Origin: Cunninghamella blakesleeana
Taxonomy: Eukaryota; Mucoromycota; Mucoromycetes; Mucorales; Cunninghamellaceae
Length of the DNA stretch: 64,000 bases
Direction of reading: 5' to 3'
Assembly: GCA_017871115.1 (NCBI GenBank)
Contig: JAFCIZ010000002.1
Coordinates: 496,001-560,000 of the forward strand
In this document: positions 157 through 61,839 of the stretch, one piece after another
How positions within the stretch are numbered: position 1 is the stretch's first letter
Layout: each line of letters starts with the position of its first letter
The notes under the pieces: generated by a model
What the model saw: the letters and a program-made list of their open reading frames with translations, nothing else
Databases searched by the model: none
What the model was told of the DNA's origin: nothing
Made by a program: the position numbers and the translations under genes

Positions 157-2562
157 TTAATTATTATTTAACAAATATTCAACAGCTGCATCAACATTCC
201 CCCCAGTTGCTAATAATGCACGTATATTAGCTTGTTTTTCTACAAATCCCATTTCTTCCAGCTGACTCAATTGTGATTGAAATCGTGTTTCTGGTGGTTC
301 TGTGGACTGAGAGGCGTTATTGTTATTGTTATTATTATTATTTGACGGCATTCCACTATATTATTATAATAAAGACAAGTAATTAATAATCTTTACTATA
401 GCACTGTTTTATTATTATTTTATTATTTTATTATATTCTATATTACCTAAACATATTTCCCCATAGATTTTGACCAAATGGTGATGTTGTGGGGAAAGCT
501 TGCTCTTGTTGACCTTGTTGACCTTGTTGTCTTTGTTCCATCATACTTTGATGTAAGCGCATGGTTGCCTGTAAAAAGTTAGGATCTGCCCAAAAAGGGA
601 CATTTCCATTGGATGAACCTGTACCTTGATTTTGTGCTGATGAAGTATTTGTAGAATTGTTATTGTTATTGGATGTTGACTATATATTAAAAAGAAAAAA
701 AAAAAAAAGAAAAATCAGAGAAAGTGAATATATAATACCTAATACAAGTTATTTATATCTATACATATATTTATATGATCACACTTACATTAGGAATACC
801 AGGGAATCCCATCATTGGAAAAGGAGATCCAGAATTACCAGAGCCCATAAGAGGATTGCCAGCACCCATAAGTGCTAAATAAGATAGACAAAATAACAAA
901 GTAATAATACATAAATAAATAATTAACTAAATATAGAGAATGATGGATTATGTCATATGCAAATGATTATGATTATTATTACCAGCAAATGGGTTTTGTG
1001 CTGCAGATGGAATGCTGTCATTACTATTGTTGTTATTATTACTGCTATTATTACTAGTGTTGGTATTTCCTGATGGTGCTGCCCATGGATTTGGTAATGC
1101 TTGGGTATTCAAAGTATTTTCTATAAATTTAAAATTACAATATTAAAAGTAATAGTATTAATAAGCATATAGAAATGAAAATATGTCATTGTTTTTAATA
1201 TCACTATGTATGTTGTTTTTACCTGGAACACTTGTTACATTAAGTTGTCTTGCCAATCTTTCATTTGCTTCATCAGATGAAGTATCATTTGGTCTAGATA
1301 CAGATGACAATGGATCATTCAAAGTGCTATACATACGTCTTAAATGATTAAATCCACCAGGAATTGCCTAAACAATAATTATAATAATAAAATAAATAGC
1401 AATTATATTAATATTCAATTTTTATAATAATCTATACTTATTATTCTATGTATATATATATGCAAGTATTACTTCTATGTTGGATAATGCACGATCATTA
1501 CTACGTTGGGCTTCTCTCATTAATTCCGGATTTCTAAGAGGAAAAAAAAAAAAAAAGGAATAAATGAGATTAGCTTCTTTTTTTTAAAAAAATAATTAAT
1601 GATATTATGATCCTATTAATATTGATATATTTATTTACCTCATCATCTCAATAGATTGTCTTAAAAAGGCAGGATCATTAATAACATGGCCAATTTCAGG
1701 GTTTTCTTCTACCAATGCTCTCATTTGAGGATTGCTCATAATGATAGATCGTACAAAATCTACAAGTATATAATAACCATACCAAAATATTGTTAATAGT
1801 CATCATCATCAATATCTACGATATATACCTATATTTAGAATAAATCACTTTACCGGTATTGCTAAGCAAACCTTGCATAATTGGGCTATCCATCATCTGT
1901 CTCATTGCTTCGGGGTCCATTTGAGGCATACCACCTGGACCGCCAGCTCCCATACCACCAAACATACCATCTCCCATACCAGGGAAAAGGCCACCAGCGT
2001 TACCGCCTGAAGAGAATAGGGATGGTGTAGGTGTCGATGTATTTCTTGATGTATTACTATTATTGTTATTATTATTATTGTTGTAATTGTTGCTGTTGTT
2101 GTTGTTGTTGCTAGTAGTAGTATTAGTAGTAGCTGTAGTTGTCGATGTTGATTCTTTAGACTCCTTTTTTGTTCCAACTGGCTGATCTTTAGGAGTTGAG
2201 GGTGTTGAAGTTGATTTTGATTTTACAACATGAATAGTGTTACCGTTGCTTATTTCTGTTATAATATACAATTAATGTATATATAAAAAAAGGAAAAAGT
2301 TATAAGTGTGGATATAAATATAAATGATTATTTATAGTTGTTATTATTATATAAAAGATTGATATTTACTGTAAGAACCACAAGATTCGTCATCTTTAAG
2401 AATGCGGCCTGAATAGACTAATTTTAATTGAGAAGCAGGTACGCCATCCATTTTTTCACCAATTTTTTCTTTTAATTGATAAACAGTCCAATCAAGATCT
2501 AACTCTACATCAAGTAATTTACCAGTAGATGGCCTGACTTTAATATTTATAAGTTCACCCAT
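157..2562 (-). CDS. dsk2: Ubiquilin / Dsk2-type ubiquitin shuttle protein
   Basis: Shuttle factor that carries ubiquitinated proteins to the proteasome. Nine exons fit in phase: 2562-2370, 2255-1854, 1759-1639, 1533-1473, 1367-1223, 1120-983, 874-789, 679-447, 355-157 (about 525 aa). Seen: an N-terminal ubiquitin-like domain (residues 1 to about 75, starting [20 protein letters not shown], with the join restoring [11 protein letters not shown]); a central region with the STI1-type stretch [16 protein letters not shown] followed by [20 protein letters not shown], and Gly/Met/Pro-rich linkers; a C-terminal UBA domain ([20 protein letters not shown], then a VDAAVEYLL helix). UBL-STI1-UBA order is diagnostic of the family. 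Poly-Asn runs sit in the linkers. Divergently transcribed from the rhodanese gene. Confidence 0.93.
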
Positions 2563-3365
2563 TTTATTATTTTGAATTTATGTAATAAAAATAAATAAAA
2601 AATAAAGTTATATTATTAAAAAAAATAATAATAAAAAAAGGAAGAAAGAGAAGGAGAGCAAAAAAAAACAGAGCACACCAAAATAAAAATTAATTTAAGC
2701 GCCGCATTTTTTCATTCATTGTCTATTTTTTTTTATAGTCTTTTACTACCTAGTCTTTATTATATAATATTTAAAAAATATTATCTTTTCAACTTCAAAA
2801 AAATTACAAAAAATAACAAAAAACACCAATAATTCCAAGCTAAAAATTATATCCGCATAGGATAACATATTAAAAAAAGGACTTTTGCATTAAATGATTT
2901 TATACGTGTTGTAAGTTAATATTTACTTGTAACTAGTTAAAATATTTACATATAGTAGTAGGCATGGAATCATTCAATATTGAACCTTTTTTTTTTGTGA
3001 TTATGTTATATATGATTATGACTAAATATAGCCTATATAGTTATCATATATATAGGGACTATTTGTTATTTTTTTAAAAATAAAAATTGAGAGTGGCTAT
3101 GTGGGTAAAAAATAAAAACAAAAAAATATACTCACTATATAAAACGCCCATTTGGTTTTACACTTTATTGATTTTTTTTATTTTATAAAATATTTGGTAA
3201 ATGATTATTGCTCTTTTACAAACATCTACTGCCGGAGTTAAAATTGTATGTCGATTTTTTTCGGAAAGATGATGAAACTTAATCTTTTTGTCATATTTTT
3301 TTGCCTCTTTCTTTTCTATTTCTTTTTACGCTTATTAATAATACTAAGATTATATTTTATTAACA
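2563..3365. other. Intergenic, divergent promoter region
   Basis: About 800 bases between two divergent gene starts (ubiquilin and rhodanese). It is AT-rich with poly-A and poly-T tracts. I see no ORF with coding character and no RNA gene. It must hold both promoters, but no specific element could be assigned. Confidence 0.6.
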
Positions 3366-4371
3366 ATGTCTAAAGTATTTGCAACTAGTTTAAGATTATC
3401 TAAACAAAGCCAAAGATATGTATTTAACGCGTATCAAGCACGTTTACCATTAAAAGCACGTTTTAATACCACCCTTCCTCTTATTCAAACTTATCCATCC
3501 ATTGTTTCAAGTCGTTTTTATAATACACCTGCATCACCTTTTCCTGTTGTTGAATTTGAAGATATTCAAGATATTATTAAAAAACAAGACAAAGTAAGAG
3601 TTTCTACTACTATTAATATTAATATTATTATTATTATTACTATTATTATTATTATTATTATTATTACAATTATTGTCATGTGTATATATATTTTTACTGA
3701 TTAATTTATTCATATATTTATTTATTCATGTGCTCTAATTACAAATATACATGTTCAAACTATGAAAATAGAATATAGAATTAATTGATGTTCGTGAAAA
3801 GAAAGAAGTTAGCCAAGGATATATCCCTACAGCAAAAAATGTACCTTTGGTAAGAATAAAATAAAATTATATGTATAAATAAAAAAAAGGTTGTAGAGAG
3901 AAGGGAAAAAGAGATGGTAATAATAAAGGATGATTTATGTATACTTGCGTTTTAATATAAATATATTTGAAAAAAAAAGGGTTTTTTATTGATTTATGAC
4001 ACGTGCCTAAGGTTTAACTTTTTTTTTTATTCTTCATCCTTTTTTTTTTTTTTAATATAGAGTCAATTAGAGCAAGGTTGGGCATTATCTGATAGCCAAT
4101 TTGAAAATGAATTCGGATTTTCCAAACCAAATAAAGATAAAACTTTAGTTTTATATTGCCTTGGAGGTGTTCGTAGTACAAAAGCAGCTAACATTCTTCA
4201 ACAACAATACGGATATAATAAGTAAGTGAATAATGGTGACTCTCTATATATAATTTAATCATTGGACTTATGATTCTTTTTATTAATATGTATTATTATT
4301 GTTATTATTTTAGTATTCGTAATTATGTAGGTAGCTGGGCTGATTATAGTGAAAAAATAAAAAACCATTAA
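3366..4371 (+). CDS. Mitochondrial rhodanese-domain sulfurtransferase
   Basis: Single rhodanese domain protein of about 154 aa. Exons 3366-3593, 3772-3849, 4061-4221, 4314-4371 join in phase. The second exon must start at 3772, since the next AG (3778) would give an immediate stop. The N-terminus (about 45 aa) is rich in Arg, Ser and Lys without acidic residues, typical of a mitochondrial presequence. The rhodanese core is clear: ELIDVREKKEVSQGYIPTAKNVPL, then the active-site loop CLGGVRSTKAA with the catalytic Cys, and GSWADYSEKI at the end. Similar to small mitochondrial thiosulfate sulfurtransferases (yeast Rdl1/Rdl2 type). Substrate is not readable from sequence. Confidence 0.9.
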
Positions 4372-26894: not shown

Positions 26895-27051
26895 GAATAA
26901 CAAGTATAAAACATCATAAATAAGAAAACGGTTAAAATGGTTATCAAATGATTATCTAGAAGGTTTTAAATATATTTATATCGTTTATATATATACAGTA
27001 ATAGTATTTAAATATACTATTAAATAAAAAAAATAAAATAAAATAATAATA
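26315..27051. other. Intergenic, transporter promoter side
   Basis: AT-rich DNA upstream of the transporter start. Contains a (TA)n run of about 35 bases at 26855-26888. No gene recognised. Confidence 0.5.
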
Positions 27052-27205
27052 ATGACATTCATAAAGACTTATATTTTTTGTGCTACATTAATGAAAAAAT
27101 TAAAGCGAGAGGCCAAATATGTATAAATTATGAAATAAACTCAAGTATTAACGAAAACGTGTGCTCTTTCTAATATAAACTTAGAAGATCATTTATGATT
27201 ACAGT
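27052..27205 (+). repeat. Diverged direct repeat, copy 1 (flanks fold-back)
   Basis: About 150 bases matching 28708-28857 in the same orientation, sharing for example TATATTTTTTGTGCTACATT, AATGAAAAAATTAAA, and GAAAACGTG before CTTTCTAATATAAA. The copies differ at many positions, so the duplication is old. Confidence 0.75.
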
Positions 27206-27462
27206 ATTTTGACTCTGCTTTTCGTATTTAAATTTTTTAATTTGCGCACCGGATTTTCAATTTTGCGCTTCCGATGAAGTTTTTACTTGATTTTGCGTTT
27301 TTCTTTTTATATATTAGCATAATACTGAAGTGTGTTTTATCATGATTTTATTGAATTTGCTAATTTATCAATTATTTATATATTTATACAATATAAATTG
27401 ATTATCTACTAAATATATGATTCTATAGTTAAATATCTATCAAAAAGATGAAATAGTATATC

Positions 27463-27722
27463 TTATTTATTCATTGCAAGCTTGTTTAGATACACATTAG
27501 ATATTGATTCTATTATTCTATTTTCCAAGCTATCACTATATGATGATGCATTTATTTTAAAGCATGCTTTGAACTTGGGTTAAAATTTTTCAATTAGATT
27601 TAGAAATGGAGAATGTGGGGATAAATAGATAAATTTATATTCTCGGCTTCCAATTAATTCTTTTACAATAGATGTGGAATGAATAGATACATTACCGATT
27701 ACAAAACATCTATCAACTATTA
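27463..27722 (-). pseudogene. Tc1/mariner-type transposase fragment (left arm)
   Basis: Mirror copy of the fragment at 28219-28478. Its minus-strand translation gives the same YLSPHSPFLNLIEKF signature and the same internal stop where the family has Trp. C-terminal third only. Confidence 0.7.
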
Positions 27723-28218
27723 TTACAATGAATAAATAAACGATGATAATAATAACAAAAATAAAAATAAAAGGACAAATGTAATATAGAGCTTATAAAA
27801 TAAATTTAAAACCAGATGATATAAGAAACGTAAAATAAACTTTTGCATTATTTTTATTATTTATACAGTCCAAATTAACAAATCCTGACCATAAGAGTTT
27901 TATTAGGTGTCTTTTTTATTTAATACATATATAAATACATTATATCATTGTTTTCTGAACTCTACTATTTGTGACTAAAATATGAATATTACACACTTAA
28001 AAAAAAAAATTATAAACAGATACAGTTTATAATTTGTTTATATTATCGTACCTAACATTAATCCAGGTCATAATGAGCATATTAATAATTAATGCAAAAG
28101 TTTATTTTACGTTTCTTATATCATCTGGTTTTAAATTTATTTTATAAGCTCTATATTACATTTGTCCTTTTATTTTTATTTTTGTTATTATTATCATCGT
28201 TTATTTATTCATTGTAAT

Positions 28219-28478
28219 AATAGTTGATAGATGTTTTGTAATCGGTAATGTATCTATTCATTCCACATCTATTGTAAAAGAATTAATTGGAAGCCGAGAA
28301 TATAAATTTATCTATTTATCCCCACATTCTCCATTTCTAAATCTAATTGAAAAATTTTAACCCAAGTTCAAAGCATGCTTTAAAATAAATGCATCATCAT
28401 ATAGTGATAGCTTGGAAAATAGAATAATAGAATCAATATCTAATGTGTATCTAAACAAGCTTGCAATGAATAAATAAG
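28219..28478 (+). pseudogene. Tc1/mariner-type transposase fragment (right arm)
   Basis: One frame reads VIGNVSIHSTSIVKELI, then YKFIYLSPHSPFLNLIEKF, stop, PKFKACFK. This matches the C-terminal DDE_3 core of Tc1/IS630 transposases (consensus DN.S.H, then YLPPYSP.LNPIE..W). The catalytic Asp of the DN pair reads Gly, Pro before Ile-Glu reads Leu, and the conserved Trp is a stop codon, so it is dead. No upstream transposase sequence remains. Confidence 0.75.
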
Positions 28479-28707
28479 ATATACTATTTCATCTTTTTGA
28501 TAGATATTTAACTATAGAATCATATATTTAGTAGATAATCAATTTATATTGTATAAATATATAAATAATTGATAAATTAGCAAATTCAATAAAATCATGA
28601 TAAAACACACTTCAGTATTATGCTAATATATAAAAAAAATACGCAAAGTTGTAAATCTGGAGGAATGCATATCAAAAGTCAAAATTCTATATAAAAAAAA
28701 AAAAATA

Positions 28708-28857
28708 ATGGCATCCATACATTCTTATATTTTTTGTGCTACATTAATGAAAAAATTAAAACGAGAGGCAATATATGTATAAATTGTGAAATATACTTGA
28801 CTGTTATTGAAAACGTGCGGTGCTTTCTAATATAAAATTTTAAGATCCTTTATGATT
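28708..28857 (+). repeat. Diverged direct repeat, copy 2 (flanks fold-back)
   Basis: Second copy of the 27052-27205 sequence, same strand. The two copies bracket the fold-back, as expected if a larger element or segmental duplication existed before the inverted structure formed. Confidence 0.75.
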
Positions 28858-29090
28858 AAAATAAAAGAAAAGAAAAAGAAACGGAGCTTAAATAAAATAA
28901 TAAAAAAAAAGAACAATAAGAATAAAGAATTAAATATTATTTATTATATAAGAGTGATGATGGCTAAAAAAGTAAAAAAATAAAATGCAATAAAAGAGGA
29001 TATAAACAAATAATAAGAGTTACTATGTTGAATTAATTTAAGAGATATGTAAAATAAAAATGTAAGATGAAGTAAAATAAAATAAAAAAA

Positions 29091-53854: not shown

Positions 53855-54240
53855 ATGGAAAGAAAATCACTACGAAGTTGAAGGTGAAGAAAATGATAAT
53901 AATAATAATGGAGTTGCATATAAATATATTTTTTTACTTTTTTAAAAAAATGATATATATCTATATATAAATTGAATTTTATACATTTAGTCATGAAATG
54001 ATTTTTTTTTCTTTTTTTTGTCTTTGTTTTAAAAAATAATAATTGTAATAATTTATAATAATATAAAGATGCTATACCAAGAAAAATAATAAATAAGCAA
54101 CTATTATTATTAAAATAAAATAATACGTATTGCTCTATGATCATGGCAACGTTATATAAAGAAAAAATAGATTCATAAAGATAAGATAATCTAATTTTGA
54201 GTTATTTCAATATTAATATTATAATATTATTTTTATATAT
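53855..54240. other. Intergenic, rpn11 3' flank
   Basis: About 390 bases of AT-rich DNA between the rpn11 stop and the first base of the palindrome. No feature seen. Confidence 0.5.
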
Positions 54241-54742
54241 ACAGGTTTTTTACTTTGCTTTTGCGTATCCTAATTTTTTTTTTGCGCATAGAAGTTTTTT
54301 TTTTTTTTGCGTACTAAATAAATTCTTTCCTTTAAATTTGCGCATCTTGATTTTTTTTTCGCGTACCTTCTTTTTTTTTTTTTGCACATTTAAAAATTAT
54401 TATAAAAAACTGGAGATTAATCATTTTACTTTATAATGTTATATGTATCATACAAATCTAAAGGTTGCTGTTCATCAGTCATTGGAATATCATCATAAAC
54501 ATTAAAACAATTCCTATATTCCTCAGGAACATCATATGTTGTATCCATATCATCAGAAGTAGGAAACTTATTTAAAAATTTAGAAGGTACTCCATCAACA
54601 AATGCCATTAATAACTGATTTTTTTTAAAAAACAAAAAAAAGAGAATGAAATAAAGTATATTCTATTATAACTTAAAAAAAAGATGAAAAGTTAAATGCG
54701 CAAAAAAAAAAAAAATAAGATACGCAAAAGCAAAAAGCCTGT
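54241..54742. mobile_element. 0.5-kb CAGG..CCTG inverted-repeat module, left copy
   Basis: Begins ACAGGTTTTTTACTTTGC plus TTTTGCGTATC and ends GATACGCAAAAGCAAAAAGC then CTGT, an inverted pair of about 27 bases with mismatches. TA flanks both sides, outside CAGG and CCTG. Several spaced TTTGCGYA-like motifs sit inside the outer end (54254-54390). It encloses the 60-aa ORF. This looks like a small TIR transposon nested at, or forming, the end of the palindrome. The TA flanks fit the TA target-site duplication of Tc1/mariner-like elements, but no transposase is present. Confidence 0.65.
54426..54608 (-). CDS. 60-aa acidic ORF of the terminal module (left)
   Basis: ATG at 54608 gives MAFVDGVPSKFLNKFPTSDD and on to YNIIK. 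Rich in Asp, Tyr and Pro, no hydrophobic helix, no known domain. An AG acceptor-like site lies just upstream, so it may be the last exon of something longer. The identical protein is encoded in the right arm. Function unknown. Confidence 0.4.
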   Translation of the reverse strand: MAFVDGVPSKFLNKFPTSDDMDTTYDVPEEYRNCFNVYDDIPMTDEQQPLDLYDTYNIIK

Positions 54743-54760
54743 ACCAATTGAATCAAATTT

Positions 54761-54772
54761 GATACTGGTATC
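54761..54772. other. Dyad GATAC-TG-GTATC
   Basis: Two 5-base half sites around a 2-base centre, between the terminal module and the leader block; mirrored at 61002-61013 with CA in the centre. A 2-base centre is what serine recombinases cut, but a 10-base dyad in AT-rich DNA can be chance. Confidence 0.25.
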
Positions 54773-54929
54773 ACTCAATTTTTATAGCAATCGGTATCAT
54801 ATATATATATATATATATATTAATCCATTACAAAACTAGTTCTTTTAATACAGCTAACTATTAGAATACACCTTTTGCTAAAAAGATGTCGCACTAAAAA
54901 AAAGTAAAAAGTGCCGCATTTAAAAAATA

Positions 54930-55028
54930 AATAATGCCGCAACTTGCTTTACTTTTTTTTTTTTATTACTTTTTCTTTCTACCATGAGTTTTTCATTATA
55001 TTTTGGAAAATATTGTTGATCAAGTGAA
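54930..55028 (+). repeat. Leader block upstream of gene A (left)
   Basis: Starts ATAAATAATGCCGCAACTTG and runs through CTACCATGAGTTTTTCATTA to TTGTTGATCAAGTGAAAG. The same block, about 95% alike by eye, sits in both orientations at the palindrome centre (57812-57986) and again in the right arm (60760-60860). It precedes a minisatellite and then a TREQA-type gene every time, so it may be the promoter of this gene family. Confidence 0.7.
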
Positions 55029-55029
55029 A

Positions 55030-55350
55030 GTTTTCCATGTCCATTTCTATGTCTATTTTTTTAAAACCTCGCTCTCCGTGTCTATTTCTATGTCCATTTC
55101 TATGTCCATTTCTATGTCCATTTCTATGTCCATTTCTATGTTCATTTTTTTAAAACTTCGCTCTCTGTGCTCTTTTTCATGTCCTTTTTTTTACTGTCTA
55201 CTTTTTTTACTTTTTTTTACTTTTTTTACTTTTTTTTACTTTTTTTTACTTTTTTTTACTTTTTTTTACTTTTTTTTACTTTTTTTTACTTTTTTTTACT
55301 TTTTTTTACTTTTTTTTACTTTTTTTACTTTTTTTACTTTTTTTTTTACT
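55030..55350 (+). repeat. Minisatellite and TTTTTTACT array upstream of gene A (left)
   Basis: Units of TCTATGTCCATT and a longer unit with TTTTTTAAAACCTCGCTCTC (55030-55165), followed by about 16 copies of a (T)6-8-ACT unit to 55350, just 18 bases before the gene A ATG. Copy number differs slightly in the mirror array at 60437-60590. Confidence 0.9.
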
Positions 55351-55367
55351 TCAATTATTATAAAAAA

Positions 55368-56696
55368 ATGGTAACTATAACCAGGGAGCAGGCTGTATGC
55401 ATGTTATATTGTGCAGATTACAATGAAGAAAATGTTAATAAATACATAAAAATTATAGATGAACTAGAGAATTTAGATATTTGTTATAATGAAGATCCCA
55501 TGGAACCAATTTTAATTTCAGTTTTTAAAATAAATGCATACCCTTTACGATTCAAAAAATATAGTAGTGAAGAGGGATCTTCAAATAAAGAAGAAGAAAA
55601 TAATGATGAATTACGTATTGGTAAAAAAAACTTTATAAGTTTTTATTGCTTTACAGGCTAACAATATCTTATTAATTTTTATAGTAAGTAACGCTCAGTT
55701 AATTGACTTCTTAAATTCAGTTTTCCTCCCATACAATCCATTCAATGATGAAATATACGACAATAAACAAATATCAACTAAAGAAATCTTATCTTTCGTA
55801 TGGAAGTATTCATCAATTCACGATAATAAAAATATAAACACCTTTGGAAAATGGATGAAAAACAATAAACTTCATTTATTAGAATGTCCAATCAAAAGAG
55901 TTTACGATAACGAAAATAGTAAAATACAAACTCGTAACCTCTATGTATTAAAAGATAAATTTATAAGTAAGTTCAGTTTTAACTATTAAAGGGATGTATT
56001 TATTAATTAATAAATGTTATTATAGGTGATAATTTGGATAATATTGTTAATTATATGCCTAAATATAAAGTACAATTACAGCAATTCAAAAATGATGGTT
56101 ATACAATAATAGGTTATGCAAGGAAATCTAAGGGACCAGAGGCAGAAGAAACTCGAAAAAAATTATTACAGTTAATGTGTAATAATTTAAGAAATAGGTC
56201 ACTCACTGATCATATTTTTATCTCGTATCAATGTCAAGCAAATGATTTGATGTATGAAAGAGATAAAATTAGAAATCAAAATATACTAGAAGAATTAAGT
56301 GTGGATGGGGACACAAATGGTAAAAACAAGTTAAAAAATTAAAAATCGTCAATTTGTAATAATTAATTAGAATTATAAACTTTTATTAGATATGATTGAA
56401 TTTATAAATATTAAAGAGAAAGTATGTATTGTGGCTTTGGATTATTCAGGATTATCAACAAATCATCTCGATTTACAAGAATTTATAAGGTAAAATATAT
56501 CAATAAAAATAGCATATAAAAAAAACTATTCTAACATTTATTATTTAGGAATAATGCAAGTATTAAGAAAATTATAATAGATACTTTACCTTTTAATAAC
56601 AAAGTAAAAATTTATGATCGAGACCAGTTATTGAATCATCAAGATATTATGATGCAATTTGATTGTAGAACGAAGTGTTTACAAAGATCAAAATAG
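55368..56696 (+). CDS. Serine-recombinase-like protein of the palindrome (gene A, left)
   Basis: Exons 55368-55620, 55685-55966, 56026-56319, 56390-56489, 56549-56696; 358 aa. Introns are short (52-70 bases), shorter than those of the host genes. Residues 1-84: MVTITREQAVCMLYCADYNE, a possible helical adaptor. Residues 86-178: an unassigned domain (TKEILSFVWKYSSIHDNKNI, FGKWMKNNKLHLLECPIKRV), perhaps DNA binding. Residues 204-300 resemble the catalytic core of serine recombinases: YTIIGYARKSKG (Arg211, Ser213), then KVCIVALDYSGLS (Asp294). The usual DRLSR arginines read Tyr and Ser, so activity is doubtful or the family is diverged. Fold assignment is by motif only. Confidence 0.55.
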
Positions 56697-56709
56697 TTTT
56701 TTTTATTTC

Positions 56710-56815
56710 AAAAATAATAATAATAGCAAATCAAAAATGATAATAATAATAATAGCAAATCAAAAATGATAATAATAATAATAACAAATCAAAAATGATA
56801 ATAATAATAATAAAA
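56710..56815. repeat. Three tandem 29-30-base units between genes A and B (left)
   Basis: About three copies of (AAT)4-5 plus AGCAAATCAAAAATG, between the convergent ends of genes A and B. Mirror copy at 58972-59077. Confidence 0.85.
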
Positions 56816-56863
56816 TAAAGTGAAAATGCTGTCTTATAAGTGCCTATAAACTTGAATACTGTT

Positions 56864-57088
56864 TTACTTTTTTACAATATCTAAATCAACAGGGTACTTC
56901 TGATACTTTAAAGGATTAGAATTTAAACGTTTTAAAGAAATTAAAATTGGTTCCATAGGATCTTCATTATAACAAATATCTAAATCTTTTAGTTCGTCTA
57001 TAATTTTTATGTATTTATTAACATTTTTTTCATTGTATTCTGCACAATATAACATGCACAGGGCCTGCTCCCTGGTTATAGTTATCAT
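56864..57088 (-). CDS. Truncated paralogue of gene A first exon (gene B, left)
   Basis: 74 aa, MITITREQALCMLYCAEYNE to DLDIVKK. About three quarters identical by eye to residues 1-60 of gene A, then diverging and stopping. No recombinase-like part follows. Either an independent small protein (antagonist or accessory) or a degraded copy with an intact frame. The identical copy is at 58699-58923, so no decay has occurred since the inversion. Confidence 0.5.
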   Translation of the reverse strand: MITITREQALCMLYCAEYNEKNVNKYIKIIDELKDLDICYNEDPMEPILISLKRLNSNPLKYQKYPVDLDIVKK

Positions 57089-57124
57089 TTTTTTTTATAA
57101 TAATTGAAGTAAAAAAAAAAAAGT

Positions 57125-57812
57125 AAAAAAAATAAAAAAAAAGGGCATGGAAATGAACACGGAGAGCGAGGTTTTAAAAAAATGGGCATAGAAAAGGACA
57201 TAGAAATGGACATGGAGAACGGGGTTTTAAAAAAATGGGCATAGAAAAGGACATGGAAATGGACATGGAGAACGGGGTTTTAAAAAAATGGACATGGAAA
57301 TGGACATGGAGAACGGGGTTTTAAAAAAATGGACATGGAAAAGGACATGGAAATGAACACGGAGGGCGAGGTTTTAAAAAAATGGACATGGAAATGGACA
57401 CGGAGAGCGAGGTTTTAAAAAAATGGGCATAGAAATGGACATGGAAATGGACACGGAGAACGGGGTTTTAAAAAAATGGGCATAGAAAAGGACATAGAAA
57501 TGGACACAGAAAACGAGGTTTTAAAAAAATGGACGTAGAAATGGACATGGAGAGCGAGGTTTTAAAAAAATGGACATAGAAAAGGACATGGAAATGGACA
57601 CGGAGAACGGGGTTTTAAAAAAATGGACATAGAAATGGACATGGAAATGGACACGGAGAACGGGGTTTTAAAAAAATGGGCATAGAAATGGACACGGAGA
57701 GCGAGGATTTAAAAAAATGGGCATAGAAGTGGACATGGAAATGGACACGGAGGGCGAGGTTTTAAAAAAATGGACGTAGAAATGGACATGGAAATGGAAA
57801 TGGAAAACTTTC
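57125..57812 (-). repeat. Inner minisatellite, left
   Basis: About fifteen units of 35-55 bases built from GGTTTTAAAAAAATGG, ACATGGAAATGGACAC and GGAGAACG or GGAGAGCG. It lies upstream of gene B on the minus strand. Unit variants are ordered identically, in mirror image, in the right inner array. Confidence 0.92.
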
Positions 57813-57986
57813 GCTTGATCAACAATATTTCCCAAAATATAATGAAAAACTCATGGTAGAAAGAAAAAGTAATAAAAAATAAATAATGCTGCAATTTGCT
57901 TTACTTTTTTTTTTATTACTTTTTCTTTCTACCATGAGTTTTTCATTATATTTTGGGAAATATTGTTGATCAAGCGAAAGTTTTCC
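57812..57986. repeat. Palindrome centre
   Basis: Two leader blocks face each other head to head around the spacer 57880-57905. Arms nearest the spacer read AGAAAGAAAAAGTAAT and its complement. The spacer matches half of the outer leader (ATAAATAATGCCGCAACTTG at 54930), so the centre is two units fused inside their leaders. Confidence 0.85.
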
Positions 57987-58660
57987 ATTTCCATTTCCAT
58001 GTCCATTTCTACGTCCATTTTTTTAAAACCTCGCCCTCCGTGTCCATTTCCATGTCCATTTCTATGCCCATTTTTTTAAATCCTCGCTCTCCGTGTCCAT
58101 TTCTATGCCCATTTTTTTAAAACCCCGTTCTCCGTGTCCATTTCCATGTCCATTTCTATGTCCATTTTTTTAAAACCCCGTTCTCCGTGTCCATTTCCAT
58201 GTCCTTTTCTATGTCCATTTTTTTAAAACCTCGCTCTCCATGTCCATTTCTACGTCCATTTTTTTAAAACCTCGTTTTCTGTGTCCATTTCTATGTCCTT
58301 TTCTATGCCCATTTTTTTAAAACCCGTTCTCCGTGTCCATTTCCATGTCCATTTCTATGCCCATTTTTTTAAAACCTCGCTCTCCGTGTCCATTTCCATG
58401 TCCATTTTTTTAAAACCTCGCCCTCCGTGTTCATTTCCATGTCCTTTTCCATGTCCATTTTTTTAAAACCCCGTTCTCCATGTCCATTTCCATGTCCATT
58501 TTTTTAAAACCCCGTTCTCCATGTCCATTTCCATGTCCTTTTCTATGCCCATTTTTTTAAAACCCCGTTCTCCATGTCCATTTCTATGTCCTTTTCTATG
58601 CCCATTTTTTTAAAACCTCGCTCTCCGTGTTCATTTCCATGCCCTTTTTTTTTATTTTTT
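57983..58660 (+). repeat. Inner minisatellite, right
   Basis: Mirror of the left inner array with the same order of variant units. One unit has AAAACCCG where its partner has AAAACCCCG (near 58320). It precedes gene B (right). Confidence 0.92.
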
Positions 58661-58698
58661 TTACTTTTTTTTTTTTACTTCAATTATTATAAAAAAAA

Positions 58699-58923
58699 AT
58701 GATAACTATAACCAGGGAGCAGGCCCTGTGCATGTTATATTGTGCAGAATACAATGAAAAAAATGTTAATAAATACATAAAAATTATAGACGAACTAAAA
58801 GATTTAGATATTTGTTATAATGAAGATCCTATGGAACCAATTTTAATTTCTTTAAAACGTTTAAATTCTAATCCTTTAAAGTATCAGAAGTACCCTGTTG
58901 ATTTAGATATTGTAAAAAAGTAA
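58699..58923 (+). CDS. Truncated paralogue of gene A first exon (gene B, right)
   Basis: Encodes the same 74 aa as the left copy. Divergently transcribed from it across the palindrome centre and convergent with gene A (right). Confidence 0.5.
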   Translation: MITITREQALCMLYCAEYNEKNVNKYIKIIDELKDLDICYNEDPMEPILISLKRLNSNPLKYQKYPVDLDIVKK

Positions 58924-58971
58924 AACAGTATTCAAGTTTATAGGCACTTATAAGACAGCATTTTCACTTTA

Positions 58972-59077
58972 TTTTATTATTATTATTATCATTTTTGATT
59001 TGTTATTATTATTATTATCATTTTTGATTTGCTATTATTATTATTATCATTTTTGATTTGCTATTATTATTATTTTT
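58972..59077. repeat. Three tandem 29-30-base units between genes B and A (right)
   Basis: Mirror of 56710-56815: ATTATTATTATTATC plus ATTTTTGATTTGCT units. Confidence 0.85.
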
Positions 59078-59090
59078 GAAATAAAAAAAA

Positions 59091-60419
59091 CTATTTTGAT
59101 CTTTGTAAACACTTCGTTCTACAATCAAATTGCATCATAATATCTTGATGATTCAATAACTGGTCTCGATCATAAATTTTTACTTTGTTATTAAAAGGTA
59201 AAGTATCTATTATAATTTTCTTAATACTTGCATTATTCCTAAATAATAAATGTTAGAATAGTTTTTTTTATATGCTATTTTTATTGATATATTTTACCTT
59301 ATAAATTCTTGTAAATCGAGATGATTTGTTGATAATCCTGAATAATCCAAAGCCACAATACATACTTTCTCTTTAATATTTATAAATTCAATCATATCTA
59401 ATAAAAGTTTATAATTCTAATTAATTATTACAAATTGACGATTTTTAATTTTTTAACTTGTTTTTACCATTTGTGTCCCCATCCACACTTAATTCTTCTA
59501 GTATATTTTGATTTCTAATTTTATCTCTTTCATACATCAAATCATTTGCTTGACATTGATACGAGATAAAAATATGATCAGTGAGTGACCTATTTCTTAA
59601 ATTATTACACATTAACTGTAATAATTTTTTTCGAGTTTCTTCTGCCTCTGGTCCCTTAGATTTCCTTGCATAACCTATTATTGTATAACCATCATTTTTG
59701 AATTGCTGTAATTGTACTTTATATTTAGGCATATAATTAACAATATTATCCAAATTATCACCTATAATAACATTTATTAATTAATAAATACATCCCTTTA
59801 ATAGTTAAAACTGAACTTACTTATAAATTTATCTTTTAATACATAGAGGTTACGAGTTTGTATTTTACTATTTTCGTTATCGTAAACTCTTTTGATTGGA
59901 CATTCTAATAAATGAAGTTTATTGTTTTTCATCCATTTTCCAAAGGTGTTTATATTTTTATTATCGTGAATTGATGAATACTTCCATACGAAAGATAAGA
60001 TTTCTTTAGTTGATATTTGTTTATTGTCGTATATTTCATCATTGAATGGATTGTATGGGAGGAAAACTGAATTTAAGAAGTCAATTAACTGAGCGTTACT
60101 TACTATAAAAATTAATAAGATATTGTTAGCCTGTAAAGCAATAAAAACTTATAAAGTTTTTTTTACCAATACGTAATTCATCATTATTTTCTTCTTCTTT
60201 ATTTGAAGATCCCTCTTCACTACTATATTTTTTGAATCGTAAAGGGTATGCATTTATTTTAAAAACTGAAATTAAAATTGGTTCCATGGGATCTTCATTA
60301 TAACAAATATCTAAATTCTCTAGTTCATCTATAATTTTTATGTATTTATTAACATTTTCTTCATTGTAATCTGCACAATATAACATGCATACAGCCTGCT
60401 CCCTGGTTATAGTTACCAT
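59091..60419 (-). CDS. Serine-recombinase-like protein of the palindrome (gene A, right)
   Basis: Mirror exons 60419-60167, 60102-59821, 59761-59468, 59397-59298, 59238-59091. The protein appears identical to the left copy (358 aa), with the same intron boundaries. Intact reading frames in both copies point to very recent duplication or to ongoing gene conversion between arms. Confidence 0.55.
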
Positions 60420-60436
60420 TTTTTTATAATAATTGA

Positions 60437-60760
60437 AGTAAAAAAAAAAGTAAAAAAAGTAAAAAAAGTAAAAAAAAGTAAAAAAAAGTAAAAAAAAGTA
60501 AAAAAAAGTAAAAAAAAGTAAAAAAAAGTAAAAAAAAGTAAAAAAAAGTAAAAAAAGTAAAAAAAAGTAAAAAAAGTAGACAGTAAAAAAAAGGACATGA
60601 AAAAGAGCACAGAGAGCGAAGTTTTAAAAAAATGAACATAGAAATGGACATAGAAATGGACATAGAAATGGACATAGAAATGGACATAGAAATAGACACG
60701 GAGAGCGAGGTTTTAAAAAAATAGACATAGAAATGGACATGGAAAACTTTCACTTGATCA
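60437..60760 (-). repeat. Array and minisatellite upstream of gene A (right)
   Basis: Mirror of 55030-55350: about 15 copies of AGTAAAAAA-type units (60450-60580) and ATAGAAATGGAC units (60630-60745). Confidence 0.9.
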
Positions 60761-60860
60761 ACAATATTTTCCAAAATATAATGAAAAACTCATGGTAGAA
60801 AGAAAAAGTAATAAAAAAAAAAAGTAAAGCAAGTTGCGGCATTATTTATTTTTTAAATGC
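60760..60860 (-). repeat. Leader block upstream of gene A (right)
   Basis: Mirror of 54930-55028 (CTTTCACTTGATCAACAATA through to CAAGTTGCGGCATTATTTAT). Confidence 0.7.
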
Positions 60861-61049
60861 GGCACTTTTTACTTTTTTTTAGTGCGACATCTTTTTAGCA
60901 AAAGGTGTATTCTAATAGTTAGCTGTATTAAAAGAACTAGTTTTGTAATGGATTAATATATATATATATATATATGATACCGATTGCTATAAAAATTGAG
61001 TGATACCAGTATCAAATTTGATTCAATTGGTACAGGCTTTTTGCTTTTG

Positions 61050-61551
61050 CGTATCTTATTTTTTTTTTTTTTGCGCATTTAACTTTTCATCTTTTTTTTA
61101 AGTTATAATAGAATATACTTTATTTCATTCTCTTTTTTTTGTTTTTTAAAAAAAATCAGTTATTAATGGCATTTGTTGATGGAGTACCTTCTAAATTTTT
61201 AAATAAGTTTCCTACTTCTGATGATATGGATACAACATATGATGTTCCTGAGGAATATAGGAATTGTTTTAATGTTTATGATGATATTCCAATGACTGAT
61301 GAACAGCAACCTTTAGATTTGTATGATACATATAACATTATAAAGTAAAATGATTAATCTCCAGTTTTTTATAATAATTTTTAAATGTGCAAAAAAAAAA
61401 AAAGAAGGTACGCGAAAAAAAAATCAAGATGCGCAAATTTAAAAACATGATACGCAAATTTAAAGGAAAGAATTTATTGAGTACGCAAAAAAAAAAACTT
61501 CTATGCGCAAAAAAAAAATTAGGATACGCAAAAGCAAAGTAAAAAACCTGT
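61050..61551. mobile_element. 0.5-kb CAGG..CCTG inverted-repeat module, right copy
   Basis: Inverted copy of 54241-54742. It starts ACAGGCTTTTTGCTTTTGCG near 61034 and ends AAAAAACCTGT at 61551, with TA flanks. It has one extra unit relative to the left copy (CATGATACGCAAATTTAAAA at about 61445), so the module differs by about 22 bases between arms. Confidence 0.62.
61166..61348 (+). CDS. 60-aa acidic ORF of the terminal module (right)
   Basis: Same protein as the left copy (MAFVDGVPSKF to YNIIK), ATG at 61166. No recognised domain; identical retention in both arms only shows recent duplication, not function. Confidence 0.4.
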   Translation: MAFVDGVPSKFLNKFPTSDDMDTTYDVPEEYRNCFNVYDDIPMTDEQQPLDLYDTYNIIK

Positions 61552-61839
61552 AAAAAAAAAAAAAGTAATTGTGCTATATATGGATAATAAGGGATAAAGA
61601 TATAAATATTGCTTTGTAAAAATGAAAAAAGAAAAAAAAAATCAATAATTATTACTCTAATATACAACAAGTAAAAAATAAAAAATAAATCATAATATAT
61701 ATAAAAATATAAAAAATAGTTGTATATATAAAATGAAATAAAAGATATGAATATGAATATAAAATAAGATAAAGTGAAGTTATAGTATATTTTAGAGTGA
61801 TGGTGAGAGGGAGTGAGGGAGAGTAAGTAAGGAAGAGAA

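Follow-up and report, generated by a model that had tools for sequence, protein, structure and literature searches.

Organisation of the palindromic locus

The window, which is the whole 64,000-nt stretch of Cunninghamella blakesleeana DNA that was analysed, corresponds to positions 496001-560000 of contig C2 in an assembly of 32 Mb and 12 contigs. A large palindrome lies at a TA between an rpn11-like gene and a VTC-like gene, and each of its arms carries the same two intact genes, referred to below as the long and the short gene (Table 1). In the assembled sequence, positions 54240-61552 are made up of two 3.64-kb inverted arms and a 21-nt spacer. The near-perfect 7.3-kb palindrome with arms of about 3.65 kb that was described in the initial annotation is thus confirmed in the assembly, where a reverse-strand self-BLAST of the window gave a single match (54230-61562, 98.7% over 7,374 columns). 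A spacer of about 25 bases had been proposed; the spacer exists but measures 21 nt between the last paired bases. It sits in a 42-nt motif (57873-57914), which recurs at 54921-54962 with 95% identity.

Table 1 Coordinates of the features in the two palindromic elements of the window
Feature	Position	Strand	Basis
Whole palindromic element, TA at each end	54240..61552		End pattern, exact outer blocks, self-inverted match
Left arm	54240..57883		Arm alignment, exact blocks
Central spacer, 21 nt	57884..57904		Arm alignment
Right arm	57905..61552		Arm alignment, exact blocks
Left terminal unit, ~504 bp; second inward-facing end CCTGTA at 54738-54743	54240..54743		
Right terminal unit, ~522 bp, mirror of left terminal unit	61031..61552		
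Long gene, left arm, 5 exons, 358 aa, putatively serine-recombinase-like	55368..56696	+	Splice-signal gene model, fold comparison
Long-gene exons, left arm	55368-55620, 55685-55966, 56026-56319, 56390-56489, 56549-56696	+	
Long gene, right arm	59091..60419	-	Coding sequence identical to left copy
Short gene, left arm, 74 aa, convergent to long gene, ~51 codons in common	56864..57088	-	
Short gene, right arm	58699..58923	+	
5' inverted repeat of long gene (promoter side + ~51 codons)	55320..55519	+	Paired with 56937-57140 at 92%
Minisatellite-like array upstream of short gene, left arm; mirror about 57980-58652	57135..57808		
Second palindrome, left perfect arm, 547 bp, in element about 27200-28693	27304..27850		
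Second palindrome, right perfect arm, 547 bp	28090..28636		
Tc1-type DDE transposase piece, then stop; mirrored at 27583-27720	28220..28357	+	

Exact arm-to-arm blocks of at least 8 bp measure 66, 14, 488, 132, 267, 2234, 263 and 150 bp. Away from the centre, the arms differ by only two substitutions, at 54316/61479 and 57729/58059; one more, at 57880/57908, borders the spacer. The six length changes fall mostly within repeats: the left arm has three extra T at 54295-54297, two extra bases at 54799, one at 54953, 10 at 55221 and one at 57462, and the right arm has an extra 21-bp unit (61444-61464). The differing T tracts had been pointed out before, as had an extra unit at about 61445, which is real but one base shorter than the 22 bases given for it, and a one-C difference at about 58320, which corresponds to the extra left-arm base at 57462. 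The reading frames are intact in both arms, as had also been reported, and the coding sequence of the long gene is identical in the two. Three points were absent from the initial annotation: the palindrome begins and ends at transposon termini, an older inverted repeat lies within each arm (its right-arm copy at 58647-58850 / 60268-60467), and a second near-perfect palindrome lies in the same window. Each terminal unit also contains an ORF for an acidic 60-aa product (54426-54608 on the minus strand, 61166-61348 on the plus strand), which had no Pfam match.

Palindromes of kilobase size with tiny spacers are unstable and are mostly known as rare accidents. The earlier view that the present one is recent or homogenised is supported. 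A search of the 32-Mb genome with one arm as query, which skips very common words, gave 83 matches; those outside the palindrome were at most about 200 bp long and consisted mainly of minisatellite-like or simple DNA and remote pieces of the genes. No second copy of the arm was found in this search, and the single-arm versions suggested by the initial annotation were therefore not recovered elsewhere in the assembly. With one exon as query, no relatives were found in viral contigs.

Element ends and related elements

Both outer edges of the palindrome read TACAGGTTTTTTACTTTGCTTTTGCGTA. When up to three mismatches were allowed, this end pattern gave six matches in the genome and none for the reversed control. 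Two of the six belong to the main palindrome and two to both ends of a 797-bp element (C2:1591314-1592110); the other two are single matches at C4:1119841 and C1:3588375. For the C4 element, the other end is one base shorter and was read directly, and for the C1 element it lies near C1:3594146, where it was located by a looser pattern (10 matches compared with 3 in the control). Two further motif matches with three mismatches each, C2:210132 and C6:3382118, were not accepted since they may be due to chance (the reversed control gave 3). At its left end, a fifth element, at about 27200-28693 of the window, shows 94% identity over 50 bp with the corresponding end of the 797-bp element; its right end is degenerate and was read by eye. 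The end repeats are 84% identical over 220 bp in the C1 element and 94% identical over 458 bp in the C4 element, which holds a single gene unit. The ends of the palindrome thus recur at other loci, in agreement with the earlier proposal of a mobile element.

Terminal inverted repeats common to several copies, as in Tc1/mariner transposons, and very long terminal inverted repeats, as in Foldback/Galileo elements, are both found here, the latter as the 3.64-kb arms. TA flanks both ends of the palindrome; since the ends mirror each other, this is no independent sign of target duplication, and a self-complementary 2-bp TA beside mirrored ends is weak evidence of it. In the main palindrome, no transposase gene was recognised, and none of the DDE type was seen. 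It is more likely than not that the ends are of Tc1/mariner type.

Recurrence of palindromes

Three of the five two-ended elements that are related by their termini contain a near-perfect palindrome. Besides the main one, there is one at 27304-28636 of the window, with perfect arms of 547 bp, and one in the C1 element, with perfect arms of 1,256 bp. The three spacers measure, in this order, 21, 239 and 255 nt. The 797-bp element and the C4 element are not palindromes of this kind. As to ascertainment, the main palindrome was given, a scan of the window for inverted repeats brought up the second, and the C1, C4 and 797-bp elements were found by their ends or genes, one of these three being palindromic. 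The window scan gave only two separate inverted repeats with arms longer than 500 bp and 98% identity, and both lie in such elements. Furthermore, 79 loci (296 kb, many of them overlapping) were screened for reverse-strand self-matches of at least 100 bp and at least 90% identity; apart from the palindromes and arms already named, this gave only the long/short and end repeats of C4 and of a locus on contig C12 (L054).

The cargo differs among the three palindromes, being a gene pair per arm in the main one, a broken DDE piece in the second and another gene in the C1 element. The DDE piece matched PF13358 with an E value of 6.7e-6 and 26.5 bits, which is below the curated cut-off of 28.6. The C1 palindrome (C1:3588301-3596300) contains two divergent gene copies, at 524-1752 and 2172-3403 of that locus, around a tandem-repeat spacer; its gene gave nothing above the Pfam cut-off. 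The two ends of the second palindrome are unlike in their outermost 45-90 bp and identical further in, and the change from unlike to identical occurs at a TTTGCGT motif present in both ends. This element is flanked on both sides by a direct repeat of about 168 bp (27033-27201 and 28691-28858, 84.7%), an arrangement suggestive of insertion where the two copies of an old tandem duplication met. Elsewhere, at C4:140401-142900, a sequence near the right end was judged by eye to be related to the transposon termini; it lies about 0.7 kb from a 69% match (C4:141457) to the DDE-bearing arm of the second palindrome.

These data bear on two alternative explanations. The first is that fold-back reads or a wrongly doubled arm produced the palindrome during sequencing or assembly. 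The arms are indeed nearly identical and the assembly alone was examined, but the arms differ by two substitutions and by units of 21 and 10 bp, and arm differences had already been taken as a mild argument against a pure copy artefact. In addition, the palindrome stops precisely at an element end on either side, the unique sequence beyond differs between the two sides, and the sequence outside the perfect arms is unlike in the second and C1 palindromes, where a simple fold-back would have mirrored it. An artefact is considered unlikely. The second explanation, raised in the initial annotation, is that an inverted dimer is the form in which the element is copied or moves, palindromy being part of its life cycle. 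Palindromes in three of the five related elements would agree with such a cycle. However, only one genomic copy of the main palindrome was found, no DDE transposase was seen in it, its C4 relative holds a single gene unit, two of the five elements (C4 and the 797-bp element) have no such palindrome, and the three palindromes carry different, unrelated-looking cargo around spacers of different length. We regard an inverted dimer as improbable. The creation of the palindrome by the element's own recombination, which had been offered as another possibility, appears plausible because near-perfect palindromes sit in two other elements with related ends.

The convergent gene pair

The modelled long protein has a serine-recombinase-like fold, in which the catalytic domain of serine recombinases can be recognised. 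This assignment rests on structure comparison because profile searches gave no convincing recombinase match. Neither the long protein nor its C-terminal half matched Pfam; a profile of 30 proteins retrieved only a designed barrel and a response regulator among PDB sequences, and with a profile of seven proteins, resolvases appeared at E values of 0.64-1.4, ranked below the same designed barrel (0.16). The Tyr-Arg-Ser motif with the nucleophilic serine is present, reading GYARKS in the window protein, and in the 30 aligned proteins its columns contain Y in 28, R in 29 and S in 24 (with 3 P, 2 L and 1 gap in the serine column). The place after the third strand, matched with the LDRLGR motif by eye from strand order, reads LDYAGL; in a weak HMMER alignment the register is different. 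Among named proteins, the nearest is P0001 of Cunninghamella echinulata (95% over 77% of the long protein), which has a proline in place of the presumed catalytic serine. All named relatives are uncharacterised proteins of Mucorales. In open-licence literature, nothing was found for Mucorales combined with serine recombinase, and only unrelated work for Mucorales combined with resolvase. The region also shows an uncharacterised Mucorales family with a putative recombinase-like fold.

Exon 3 of the long gene has nine matches in its own genome, representing eight loci; four of the nine lie on one small contig, C12 (117.5 kb). A short convergent ORF of 70-89 aa is found downstream at five of the eight loci, namely the palindrome, L054 and L055 on C12, C4 and C5, and it is open in all five, even in C5 where the long gene has stops. 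At the remaining three (C7, C12:70035 and C12:50714), the long gene is broken and the convergent arrangement was not seen. The C7 locus has an exon-1 piece that is direct instead of inverted. The two C12 loci retain long-gene traces with seven stops each; no exon-1 match is listed beside C12:70035, and only a weak one (E 0.0098) lies 2.1 kb from C12:50714. A profile of the five short proteins retrieved 23 proteins, some of which are first exons of long genes. The 23 include products 70-76 aa in length, found in C. echinulata, Lichtheimia and Sporodiniella. P0052 and P0054 of Sporodiniella have a tail pattern in common with the short protein of the palindrome, and P0047 of C. echinulata closely resembles the C4 short protein. 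C5:602423 had the look of a solo short gene but was rejected, being exon 1 of a long copy that is broken; P0043, which resembles it, was likewise not counted as a short protein, nor were P0044, P0046 and P0048, whose sequences look like exon 1 of long genes.

When the long and short genes were compared at four loci (C5 was left out), codons 1-51 were 88, 98, 71 and 100% identical within a locus and 31-58% identical between loci. For residues 52-65, identity was 36-43% within loci and 14-50% between them, and the edge of strong similarity lies near codon 48-53 in all four loci. Local homogenisation thus extends over the upstream part and the first ~51 codons and does not reach the rest. Homogenisation that is so clearly limited to the first ~51 codons of a convergent pair calls for a functional reason. 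One conceivable reason, which we put forward as a distinctly doubtful one, is that Mucorales carry an undescribed mobile or self-converting two-gene unit, in which a serine-recombinase-like protein is paired with a convergent short protein made of its N-terminal domain. The inverted repeat of promoters and first ~51 codons would be kept alike per locus, with distinct tails, so that the pair keeps recognising each other, possibly as a regulator or in a poison/antidote-like manner; the unit itself would promote inverted-repeat conversion, and whole-element palindromes would be the extreme outcome.

The same homogenisation bears on the age of the palindromes. Continual gene conversion between arms has been described for sex-chromosome palindromes, and the present palindromes could similarly be old structures kept alike, whose formation need not be recent. 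The local homogenisation of the gene pairs fits this explanation, as does the second palindrome, whose element is decayed (unlike ends, a stop in the DDE piece) and yet has arms that are perfect over 547 bp. However, gene conversion by itself neither creates a palindrome nor sets its edges at element ends, and homogenisation is uneven, the long/short repeat being 92% identical in the arms of the main palindrome and 78% in L055. We consider this account unlikely, while giving it some weight.

Proposed formation of the palindrome

We think it somewhat more probable than not that the palindrome is a rearranged terminal-inverted-repeat transposon, in which both broken sides were refilled from one half and joined by microhomology. 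The structure of the locus, the shared termini, the near-perfect palindromes in two other elements with related ends and the single-unit relative are observed. From these we infer the repair route, the order of its steps and a break made by a transposase. The starting element would have been one gene unit between two similar inverted ends, like the C4 relative; no such monomer was seen at the palindrome site. A break or excision in it, possibly made by a transposase, would have been repaired by copying. One side would have been filled from the left half. On the other side, no more than ~90 bases at the outer edge would have survived, after which copying would have jumped to that same left half, a switch made possible by the ends being inverted copies of one another. 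The two identical half-copies would finally have been joined at the microhomology TAAAAAA, giving an asymmetric spacer and leaving the outer ends intact.

The centre of the palindrome reads GTAATAAAAAA-TAAATAATGCTGC. By eye, both sides enter one and the same end sequence, the left departing from it at about 11 nt and the right staying with it for about 42 nt, and TAAAAAA is common to the two. This fits a join of two copies of one end sequence cut after ~11 and ~42 nt. The unlike outer 45-90 bp of the second palindrome also count in favour of switching and refilling. In the main palindrome, the outer 90 bp contain one of the two off-centre substitutions (p 0.049, a weak signal) and two of the six length changes. 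On the other hand, a centre of this form would equally be expected from fold-back priming at a break, which counts against the refill scheme, and in the C1 element the outer edge of the right arm does not lie at the right end repeat, for which a simple refill scheme gives no account.

Comparison with known systems

The nearest precedent is Mu killer of maize, a rearranged MuDR element in which both terminal repeats come from one end and partial gene copies meet in an inverted duplication at one locus (PMC3440606). It resembles the palindrome in being a transposon derivative with an inverted duplication. Both ends of the palindrome may likewise come from one parent end: its arms are identical save for a few changes, but the parent was not seen at the site. 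Derivatives of the Mu killer type also silence their parent by means of fold-back or antisense RNA. However, Mu killer is only partial, with a centre that resisted sequencing, whereas the present arms contain complete gene pairs, and two further elements of the Cunninghamella genome also have palindromes. In Galileo and other Foldback-like elements of Drosophila, long terminal inverted repeats grow by taking internal sequence into both ends, and gap repair with template switching has been proposed (PMC4168063). The transposase of such long-TIR elements is of the P or MULE type. By contrast, the ends of the palindrome are flanked by TA with Tc1-type traces, and nearly the whole element is repeat.

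It has been reported for yeast that a break near short inverted repeats can give near-perfect inverted duplications by fold-back priming (PMC10622511). The outcome there is a dicentric chromosome, whereas the palindrome keeps both element ends and its unique flanks. KolobokP composite-like transposons have terminal units with their own short inverted ends, a feature that the palindrome shares, but in these transposons the units are directly repeated and the multimers are likewise direct (PMC9587614), whereas the units of the palindrome are inverted. The long protein departs from serine recombinases, including IS607-type transposases, in that the arginine motif after the third strand appears to be lost and an additional domain is present at the N-terminus; its gene contains introns and is accompanied by a short partner.

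The likeliest account is that one half of a transposon served to refill its broken interior, as an extreme of the Mu killer and Galileo cases. With near-perfect palindromes in three related-end elements of one genome, a transposon-repair origin would become directly testable. New in comparison with the known systems are the repeated occurrence of palindromes, with their cargo intact, in a single genome and the odd gene pair that the palindrome encloses.
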